Shown here: positions 5,065-37,254 of the stretch, one piece after another | Position numbering within the stretch: the first letter of the stretch is position 1 | How the letters are laid out: every line of letters begins with the position of its first letter | Origin: Microbacterium sp. AG238 | Lineage (GTDB): Bacteria; Actinomycetota; Actinomycetes; Actinomycetales; Microbacteriaceae | DNA length: 64,000 nucleotides | Assembly: GCF_003610405.1 (NCBI RefSeq) | Contig: NZ_RAQC01000001.1 | Location: 682,001-746,000 of the forward strand | Direction of reading: 5' to 3' | Notes under the pieces: model-generated | The model's database searches: none | Seen by the model: the letters and a program-made list of their open reading frames with translations, nothing else | Told to the model about the DNA's origin: nothing | Made by a program: the position numbers and the translations under genes

Positions 5065-5093
5065 TCAGTCACCCGCTCGCGCAGGGCAACCCC

Positions 5094-5102
5094 TCTATAT
5101 TA
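5094..5102 (-). promoter_or_regulatory. possible -10 region for tRNA-Asn
   Basis: The minus strand reads TAATATAGA here, the only AT-rich patch in this stretch, about 30 bases upstream of the tRNA 5' end. No good -35 is visible, so this is a weak call. Confidence 0.35.
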
Positions 5103-5157
5103 GCAAAGCTCCGGGGGTGCTCACGACATCGACCGCTCCCCGGGCGGGTCGCGCCTC

Positions 5158-35256: not shown

Positions 35257-35335
35257 GCTTCGTATGGGGCACGCAGAGGTCGACCCCGCAGAGTGTTCGA
35301 GGCCGCCGACAGCGGTCGCGACACGAAGGAGCACC

Positions 35336-35842
35336 ATGACCGTTCACCCCCGCCTCGTCCGCAGCATCCCGTTCTGGATTCTCGTCGCCGGATCGGTTGC
35401 CGCGATCGGCGGTGGCGCCTACATCCTGGTCGAGAAGCTCAGCAACATGGAGGCGACCATCCTCGACAACACCGCCACGGGAGTCGACGTGTACGTCGGC
35501 CAGATCTGGGGCGTGTTCGGCGGCATCCTCGTCGGTGCCGGCGTCGTCGGGCTGGCCCTCGCCCTCGCCGCCGCGGCTGTGAGCTCGGCGATCCCGACCT
35601 CCGCGCGCGGCGCCGGCAAGCGCGAGCGCGGCGCTTCCGCCCCGGACGCCACGACTCCCGTCGCGTCGGAGCCCGTCGCCTCGGAGCCCGTCGCCTCGGA
35701 GCCCGTCGCCTCGGAGCCCGTCGCCTCGGAGCGCGTCGTCTCGACCGAGACGACCGCGGTGCCCGCCGCTGGCATCTCGGCACACGACACGGCCGCGACC
35801 TCGACCCTCGAGTCGCCGTCCGATGACGCGCAGCAGCGCTGA
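35336..35842 (+). CDS. small membrane protein with tandem PVASE repeat
   Basis: A 168-residue protein of unknown function. It has two transmembrane helices (about 13-33 and 62-85), joined by an extracytoplasmic loop, then a long acidic, Ala/Ser/Thr-rich cytoplasmic tail. In the tail five copies of Pro-Val-Ala-Ser-Glu run in tandem (bases 35657-35731) with a sixth, decayed copy. A GAAGGAG ribosome site precedes ATG 35336. It follows ctaA by 79 bases and may be cotranscribed. I recognise no domain. Confidence 0.7.
   Translation: MTVHPRLVRSIPFWILVAGSVAAIGGGAYILVEKLSNMEATILDNTATGVDVYVGQIWGVFGGILVGAGVVGLALALAAAAVSSAIPTSARGAGKRERGASAPDATTPVASEPVASEPVASEPVASEPVASERVVSTETTAVPAAGISAHDTAATSTLESPSDDAQQR
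35657..35746 (+). repeat. 15-bp in-frame tandem repeat
   Basis: Five near-identical 15-base units coding Pro-Val-Ala-Ser-Glu run from 35657 to 35731, followed by a degenerate unit (Arg-Val-Val-Ser-Thr). The unit is in frame, so copy-number change would lengthen or shorten the protein without frameshift. Confidence 0.85.
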
Positions 35843-35859
35843 CCAGCGCCGCTGACATC

Positions 35860-35916
35860 CAGAACGGCCGTCCTTCGCGCCGCCCGGGCCCCCGGGTGCG
35901 GAGGGCGGCCGTTCTG
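35860..35916 (+). terminator. hairpin after the small membrane protein gene
   Basis: An 11-bp perfect outer stem (35860-35870 with 35906-35916) and a GC-rich inner palindrome CCGGGCCCCCGG lie 17 bases after the stop. U tract is weak. Confidence 0.6.
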
Positions 35917-36027
35917 CTCGTGTGCCCGTAGCCCGAGCCCTCCGTCGCGCCTCCTCACCCCGAAGCGGCATCACCCGCCACGTGGGCCCGCCGATCCCGC
36001 GGTTCATGTGTCACCGAGCGCCCCAAC

Positions 36028-36244
36028 CACCCCGCGAAGCGGCGCCAACCGCCAACCGAGCCCAACCCCGCGAGCTCACCCGGCAGCACACGCCCCCACC
36101 CACCCCGCGAAGCGGCGCCAACCGCCAACCGAGCAACCCGGCGAGCTCACCTGGCAGCACACGCCCCCACCCACCCCGCGAAGCGGCGCCAACCGCCAAC
36201 CGAGCCCAAACCCGGCGAGCTCACCTGGCAGCACACGCCCGCAC
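36028..36244. repeat. intergenic tandem repeat, three copies of about 71-73 bp
   Basis: Three direct copies start at 36028, 36101 and 36172. Each contains GAAGCGGCGCCAACCGCC, then CAACCGAG, a GAGCTCACC segment and GGCAGCACACGCCC. Copies 2 and 3 share CACCTGGCAG where copy 1 has CACCCGGCAG; small indels separate them. There is no spacer structure as in CRISPR. It fills most of the 467-base gap between the membrane protein gene and ctaB, together with hairpins at its ends. No supported gene lies in it. Confidence 0.9.
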
Positions 36245-36277
36245 AGGGCCGCGGAGCGGGCAGCAGCTGCCAGGTGA
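36221..36277. repeat. inverted partial copy of the repeat, forming a stem-loop
   Basis: TCACCTGGCAGC in repeat copy 3 (36221-36232) is exactly complementary to GCTGCCAGGTGA at 36266-36277, a 12-bp perfect stem with a 33-base loop, ending 33 bases before the ctaB stop. Confidence 0.7.
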
Positions 36278-36309
36278 AGAGCGAAGCCAGCGCGCAGCCG
36301 GGGGCGGCG

Positions 36310-37254
36310 TCAGAAGGGCAGCAGCGGGTCGACCGCGATGGCCACGAAGACGAGCGTCAAATACGTGATCGACGCATGGAAGACGCGCATCGGACGAGCC
36401 TGCTCGCCGCGGACCGCACGGTTGTACAGGCGGTGCGACTCGTAGAGGAACCAGCCGCCGAAGACGATCGCCGACACGCTGTACACGAGTCCCATGGGCG
36501 CGACCGGGATGAGCAGCAACGAGCACACCACTGTCGCCCACGCGTAGAGGATGACCTGGAGTCCGACCTGCGAGCCGTTGCGTGTGGCGCCCAGCATGGG
36601 CACGTCGACCTCGTCGTAGTCGTTCTTGTACTTCATCGACAGCGGCCAGTAGTGCGGCGGTGTCCAGAGGAACACCAGCACGAACAGGATGAGCGCCGCC
36701 CACGAGAGCGATCCGGTCACGGCGGACCAGCCGATGACGACCGGGAAGCACCCCGCGATGCCGCCCCAGACGATGTTCTGCTCGGTACGACGCTTGAGGA
36801 TCATCGTGTAGATCACGACATAGAAGAAGATGGCGAAGACGCTGAGGGATGCCGCGACCCAGTTGGTCGTCGCGGCGAGCCAGACGGTGGATGCCACGGC
36901 GAGCGTCCACGCGAAGACGAGTGCTCCGCGGGCCGAGACCTCGCCGGTCACGATCGGACGGTTCTCGGTGCGCTTCATGTGCGCGTCGATGTCGCGGTCG
37001 AGGTACATGTTGAACGCGGCGGCGGATCCGGCGCTCATCGCTCCCCCGACCACCGTCGCCAGCACGAGCCACAGGTTCGGCAGGCCGCCGGCGGCGAGGA
37101 TCATCACCGGCACGGTCGTCACCAGCAGAAGCTCGAGCACGCGCGGCTTGGTGAGGGCGACGTAGGCGCGCACCGTGGCACCGAAGGACGTTCCGCGAGA
37201 AGTGTCGACAGAGGCCGAACGCGCAGTCGTCGTGATGTCCATCGCTCCCCGCAT
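36310..37254 (-). CDS. ctaB: heme O synthase (protoheme IX farnesyltransferase)
   Basis: Adds a farnesyl group to heme B to make heme O, the step before ctaA. The 314-residue UbiA-family membrane protein has about eight or nine helices. The two Asp-rich motifs are present: [19 protein letters not shown] near residue 90 and the second [11 protein letters not shown] near 215. It starts with ATG 37254 and is divergent from tkt, with 211 bases between them. Confidence 0.95.

Follow-up and report, generated by a model that had tools for sequence, protein, structure and literature searches.

What is a tandem repeat doing in the gap between a membrane protein gene and ctaB of Microbacterium sp. AG238? 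The first-pass annotation of the window, by which we mean the whole stretch of 64,000 nucleotides analysed here, had described three copies of a 71-73 bp unit, considering a small RNA locus, a protein-binding array, a copy-number-variable REP element or a trivial duplication. It is mainly from proteobacteria that extragenic palindromes are known. Here, we have found that the window array is one locus of a dispersed extragenic palindrome family of the Microbacteriaceae, the anatomy of which is well supported, while its function we infer.

The window array in its palindrome register

Analysis with TRF revealed a tandem repeat at 36021-36244 with a period of 71, 3.1 copies, 94% matches and a score of 397, making it the top-scoring array of the window (23 rows; runner-up 153). 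With its direct copies (family D1) spaced 73, 71 and 74 bp apart, the array reported at first sight is real, but its phase had been read half a unit off the palindrome register. What recurs, every 71-74 bp, is an imperfect palindrome of 56 nt. The array extends from about 36003 to 36280 because this register adds a decayed first copy and a complete last one; the repetition claimed earlier thus stands, the number of copies being four instead of three, the last of them fully palindromic. Also borne out were the difference noted in copy 1 (CACCCGGCAG versus CACCTGGCAG), which is present in the sequence, and the gene-free character of the gap, our own codon-score script calling no gene across the array, though mechanical ORFs do overlap it. 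The features of the locus are as follows:

35264..35842, plus strand: left flanking gene, a membrane protein as named in the first-pass annotation; no Pfam match
35860..35916, no strand assigned: separate inverted repeat I1 with 22-nt arms (CAGAACGGCCGTCC...), 3' of the plus-strand gene
36003..36280, no strand assigned: whole array, copy starts 72, 71 and 74 bp apart
36003..36057, plus strand: decayed first copy of the 56-nt palindrome; R1 32.7 bits, R2 23.1 bits
36075..36130, plus strand: palindrome copy 2 (CTCACCCGGCAG...CCGCCAACC); R1 57.2 bits
36146..36201, plus strand: palindrome copy 3 (CTCACCTGGCAG...CCGCCAACC); R1 65.4 bits
36218..36280, no strand assigned: palindrome copy 4, complete hairpin TCACCTGGCAG...CTGCCAGGTGA; fold -38.0 kcal/mol, z -5.2
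36310..37254, minus strand: right flanking gene of the UbiA prenyltransferase family (ctaB by its earlier name); Pfam PF01040, E 4.7e-65

The left gene being on the plus strand and ctaB on the minus strand, the array lies in a convergent gap. Its first copy has mostly lost the left arm and overlaps the first member of D1. Copy 4, which in the 56-nt register spans 36220-36275, ends 30 bp from the ctaB stop and folds on the opposite strand as well (36213-36285; -41.2 kcal/mol, z -3.9); the inner copies 2 and 3 show no folding advantage over shuffled sequence (z 0.45 and 1.04). The inverted repeat at 35860-35916, which is also found in Microbacterium sp. SMR1 and stands outside the palindrome family, looks like the ordinary terminator of the left gene. 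The C-terminal part of that gene's product has a repeated VASEP-type peptide, encoded by a 15-bp tandem repeat at 35657-35743 (5.8 copies). A CRISPR array was rejected as an identity for the locus, the linkers within an array being near-identical rather than unique spacers.

A dispersed family with inherited positions

A DNA search of the AG238 genome returned 12 matches, the window included, at several unlinked places. With a first covariance model, built from 28 copies, 79 matches were obtained in AG238, many of which were one copy on both strands; counting one strand per copy in the fetched regions that were scanned, this comes to at least 46 palindrome copies at 18 places between genes, of which six carry arrays of at least four copies and ten a single copy. 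A second covariance model (R2), based on 47 diverse copies from seven genomes, adds one weak AG238 copy (L143:4968). In searches at E <= 0.001 with strict filters, this second model matches 102 of 295 Microbacterium genomes, AG238 and one genome of the same species included, and, across the Microbacteriaceae, 27 of 299 genomes and 19 of 85 genera, Microbacterium included; per-genome copy counts in these searches are lower bounds, at most 38 or 19 candidates being scored for each genome. Among the top-listed open-access papers, titles and abstract openings yielded no account of this family in Microbacterium or of helical REP spacing.

Palindrome positions are inherited across species, and arrays gain and lose copies even within a species. 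All 13 loci examined in SMR1, whose ctaB protein is 98% identical to that of AG238, have at least one flanking gene in common with an AG238 locus; genome G059 has three places in common with AG238, and G208 carries an array at the position of AG238 locus L134. From AG238 to SMR1, copy numbers change from 4 to 2 at the window locus and elsewhere from 5 to 1 (three times), 6 to 2, 7 to 4 and 2 to 6. Five of the 18 AG238 loci have no SMR1 counterpart among the matches; the one of these that was inspected, a single copy at L144:6559-6614, is present in AG238 and in G217 and missing in SMR1. At the matching SMR1 site (L174:6300-6430) only short CCAGGCGAA remnants are seen, and G059 has a different palindrome there. 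In the same AG238 region, the gene at L144:5472-6431 has no Pfam match, and relatives of it (54-62% identity or more) were found beside family palindromes in SMR1, G059, G139, G102 and G134.

G217 is a second genome of the same species as AG238, with aligned blocks 97.6-99.6% identical. Seven arrays measured in both differ in length by -168, +86, -320, -168, -66, +21 and 0 bp, some of these differences (-320, -66 and +21) not being whole units, and model-counted copies go from 5 to 3, 2 to 3, 6 to 3, 7 to 5, 4 to 3, 5 to 5 and 5 to 5. Among nine single copies compared in this way, two show changes of -15 and +31 bp and the other seven none; two further loci offered no anchor for the length comparison. 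Looking for the unit elsewhere and in related strains, with matching strains compared, thus revealed a dispersed family of differing copy number, and a trivial duplication, for which the unit would be absent elsewhere and fixed in number, is contradicted by its occurrence at other loci and its varying copy number. The arrays could serve as VNTR typing loci in Microbacterium.

For the placement analyses, genes were called throughout by our own codon-score script, and no predicted gene overlapped the 16 loci checked. The 18 AG238 loci comprise nine convergent, nine codirectional and no divergent gaps. Among gaps of 80-1500 bp, taken from AG238 regions chosen around elements plus the window, an element occurs in 0/20 divergent versus 18/52 other gaps (Fisher p 0.0016) and in 9/17 convergent versus 9/55 other gaps (p 0.008). 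In several genomes together, 34 loci are convergent, 41 codirectional and 6 called divergent, so that 75 of 81 show the convergent or codirectional placement of repeated extragenic palindromes; neither SMR1 nor three orthologues in G059 enter this count, and the other genomes were partly checked for orthology. Codirectional loci number 47 with orthologues included, and 45 of them are closer to the stop than to the next start; 13 single copies (12 without one orthologue) occupy convergent gaps no longer than about 112 bp. Single copies are, as intrinsic terminators are, hairpins close behind a stop codon. By eye, the elements have no fixed orientation relative to genes, and no obvious functional theme emerged among 20 flanking proteins scanned. 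At L132, a tRNA gene (about 5083-5150), recognised by eye in the sequence, begins within some 50 bp of the array, placing the array on its upstream side. G-rich runs of GGGTT and GGGGTT, which are possible quadruplex formers, directly abut two AG238 arrays (L011:2637-2687 and L009:2931-2978).

Dyad pairing and helical spacing

Both palindrome halves read roughly TTCASSTGGCAGN4YGCCSCNTC. Across the 47 diverse copies, T7, G8, C10 and C20 with their partners are invariant, and the variable dyad positions tend to differ between genomes. In the 19-pair dyad, 78.5% of cells are paired, and the arms covary, with 92 cells changed on both sides compared with 52.3 (sd 4.9) after shuffling and no more than 32 in slid controls; the copies had been collected with a model already containing 12 of the 19 pairs, and 47 of these 92 changes fall on the seven pairs absent from it. 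For AG238 copies alone, RNAalifold gave two small local stems without covariation, and the full dyad was weakly supported, strong covariation emerging once copies came from seven genomes.

Single copies pair better than members of arrays (0.81, n=36, versus 0.67, n=70; p 2e-7), also within AG238 and SMR1 only (0.80, n=18, versus 0.67, n=55; p 6e-4), related copies being counted separately in this test. Four single copies from the shortest convergent gaps fold on both strands at -41.1 to -54.7 kcal/mol, with z between -4.3 and -8.8. Since array members pair less and the inner window copies fold like shuffles, a hairpin function carries over poorly to arrays. At single copies, the hairpin covariation speaks for folding of the strand; in arrays, the weaker arms, together with the phasing described below, speak for duplex DNA.

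The distances between dyads are quantised in steps of about 10.5 bp, close to full turns of the helix. Dyad-to-dyad spacings in 36 arrays were strand-corrected, taken from the dyad position and transcribed by hand from search outputs; for R, each array was counted once and spacings below 125 bp were used. The phasing hypothesis came from a discovery set of 21 arrays, from which SMR1 and two orthologous G059 arrays had been removed; a second set of 15 arrays at other loci came from 10 genomes, two of which (G177 and G208) had also given other loci to the discovery set. Among the 73 spacings, 19 lie at 71-75 bp, 33 at 82-85 and 11 at 92-97, the gaps from 75 to 82 and from 85 to 92 being empty; the remaining 10 are 56, 104, 104, 110, 117, 137, 137, 143, 168 and 176 bp. 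R(10.5) reached 0.79 in the discovery set, 0.85 in the second set and 0.87 in the 11 arrays of the latter that lack shared flanks, with best periods of 10.3-10.6; in each of the three sets, none of 200,000 random-phase simulations, run per array, was as strong. Including all spacings, R was 0.78, 0.81 and 0.81. Off the grid are 56, 110, 143 and 176 bp, as well as 90 bp in the G217 copy of AG238 L139, outside both sets. Some arrays and copies are not independent by descent: L295 and L289 are mutual orthologues, L300 is orthologous to AG238 L134, and L288 and L291 have a flanking gene in common with AG238 L144. The second-set arrays comprise seven convergent, six codirectional and one divergent, with one lacking an assigned arrangement.

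Linkers of different loci display no clear homology among the 40 pairs listed (the lowest p, 0.03, belonging to an orthologous pair, the next being 0.035), which means that mere copying of sequence does not account for their common length, though ancient shared descent followed by decay of the sequence may do so. Arrays are mostly head-to-tail, those of at least four copies in AG238 all having a single orientation, and mixed orientation is seen in few, such as L137, L175, L192 and L198. The spacing rule points to selection on duplex DNA, and with it the question of whether such a family is selfish or functional becomes testable.

Possible roles and comparison with known systems

At a probability of roughly 0.5, we read the family as REP/BIME-like palindromes without a RAYT, single copies serving as two-way 3'-end hairpins and arrays being duplex sites that have multiplied while staying on the same side of the helix. 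A single copy would form a strong hairpin in a transcript arriving from either side and might act as a two-way 3'-end stop or insulator. Tandem duplication, via recombination or slippage, would give rise to arrays with locus-specific linkers, of which probably only those keeping the dyads on one helix face would persist, owing to joint occupancy of the double-stranded sites by a putative DNA-binding protein or topoisomerase. Counting against this reading are the poorer pairing of array members, separate hairpins resembling terminators near the array at the window locus and, judged by eye, near several others, the few divergent loci, the off-grid spacings, the length changes other than whole units, and the partly shared descent of arrays and copies. 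A bolder version, which we put forward tentatively and regard as rather unlikely, is that a putative Microbacteriaceae DNA-binding protein or gyrase recognises the duplex TGGCAGN5GCC dyad and, behind convergent genes, polymerises from one tandem copy to the next along a single face of the helix, forming a topological or transcription barrier tunable by copy number. If true, this would be a bacterial insulator of a kind, its linker length selected in whole helical turns and its linker sequence free.

Among the earlier proposals, the REP-like one is the best. The suggested copy-number-variable REP element comes close to the evidence, with dispersed palindromes and array lengths that differ within a species, though the RAYT-linked Y1 transposase was not found; the protein-binding array comes close as well through the helically phased spacing, the binding itself being predicted.

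Several known classes were tried and rejected. For a RAYT-linked GTAG REP or REPIN, the Y1/RAYT profile PF01797, on which alone the transposase search was based, matched none of 17 genomes, whether these carry copies or not, and 5 of 14 control genomes, and GTAG or CTAC stands near an end in 4 of 106 copies, the variant GTGG, as which part of the half-site can read, not being included. For a CGTC-tagged REP, 7 of 106 copies have CGTC or GACG close to one end. As for a parent insertion sequence with lone arms, none was seen with the exact pattern, 19 of 21 exact half-site matches sitting in family palindromes.

Of the rival explanations, the one that survives best, though we consider it unlikely, is that the palindromes are merely U-less (I-shaped) intrinsic terminators with conserved sequence, tandem copies being harmless duplications and the spacing a product of common descent. 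The 3' location and the strong two-strand hairpins in short convergent gaps would fit, as would the statement in a review that I-shaped terminators lacking poly-U, at most 50 bp from the stop, predominate at mycobacterial genes (PMC12288462). The same review, however, calls intrinsic terminators scarce in mycobacteria, with Rho-dependent termination dominant, and a title cited there holds that the mycobacterial polymerase requires a U-tract. Invariant half-site bases common to unlinked loci are needless for a terminator, array copies have weaker arms, and linker length classes are kept without clear sequence homology.

Less probable still is a selfish, REP/REPIN- or MITE-like mobile family with its transposase in trans and without host function. 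Genomes tend toward their own sequence version, the distribution is patchy, and L144:6559 is without an SMR1 counterpart, all of which would suit mobility; against this stand the missing PF01797 match, the lack of a constant GTAG or CGTC tag, the lack of lone arms as at IS ends, and the inherited positions. A plain minisatellite of MIRU/VNTR type, that is, neutral tandem duplication of intergenic DNA with an incidental palindrome, would account for the within-species differences in array length and for the GGGTT-type runs abutting two arrays, but is quite improbable for a dyad that is single-copy at 10 of 18 AG238 loci and covaries across species, and for spacings that are quantised. A small RNA transcribed from the array is hardly credible: the gap is gene-free and the last copy (36218-36280) folds well, but an Rfam search of 35800-36400 gave three matches, all below gathering scores, and the family sits behind unrelated genes on either strand.

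We return to the reading as REP/BIME-like palindromes. As in REP in general, there is an imperfect palindrome at many intergenic places, with at least 46 copies at 18 places in AG238, and, as in REP/BIME (PMC2817692), the palindrome is extragenic with compensatory arm changes, forming tandem clusters with inter-element segments unrelated between clusters and of strain-variable length. Unlike REP/BIME with RAYTs, the AG238 family has no Y1/RAYT match or constant GTAG head; its dyad is larger (56 nt), its arrays are mostly head-to-tail rather than alternating as in BIMEs, and its copies number tens rather than hundreds, the 46 R1 copies in AG238 staying below the more than 100 per genome usual for REPs (PMC2817692). 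BIMEs are also characterised by the binding of gyrase, IHF or Pol I. With the CGTC-tagged REPs (PMC3733652), it has in common palindromes apparently without a dedicated transposase, located mainly between unidirectional and convergent ORFs, and differs in the absence of the constant tag. MIRU-VNTR loci (mycobacterial interspersed repetitive units; see PMC3635867) are likewise actinobacterial minisatellites with strain-variable copy number, whereas the Microbacterium unit carries a covarying palindrome and a locus-specific linker. Mycobacterial I-shaped terminators (PMC12288462) are also GC-rich hairpins close behind stop codons, but the Microbacterium family has sequence-conserved half-sites and phased tandem arrays.

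RAYT transposition is a frequent explanation for extragenic palindromes; in this high-GC actinobacterial family, a RAYT was not found. Inter-element length, substantially variable in Stenotrophomonas (PMC2817692), is quantised by helical turn in the Microbacterium family, which is set apart within the extragenic palindromes by such spacing and by having no detectable RAYT, and in which positions are inherited, arrays vary within a species and dyads lie close to full helical turns apart.
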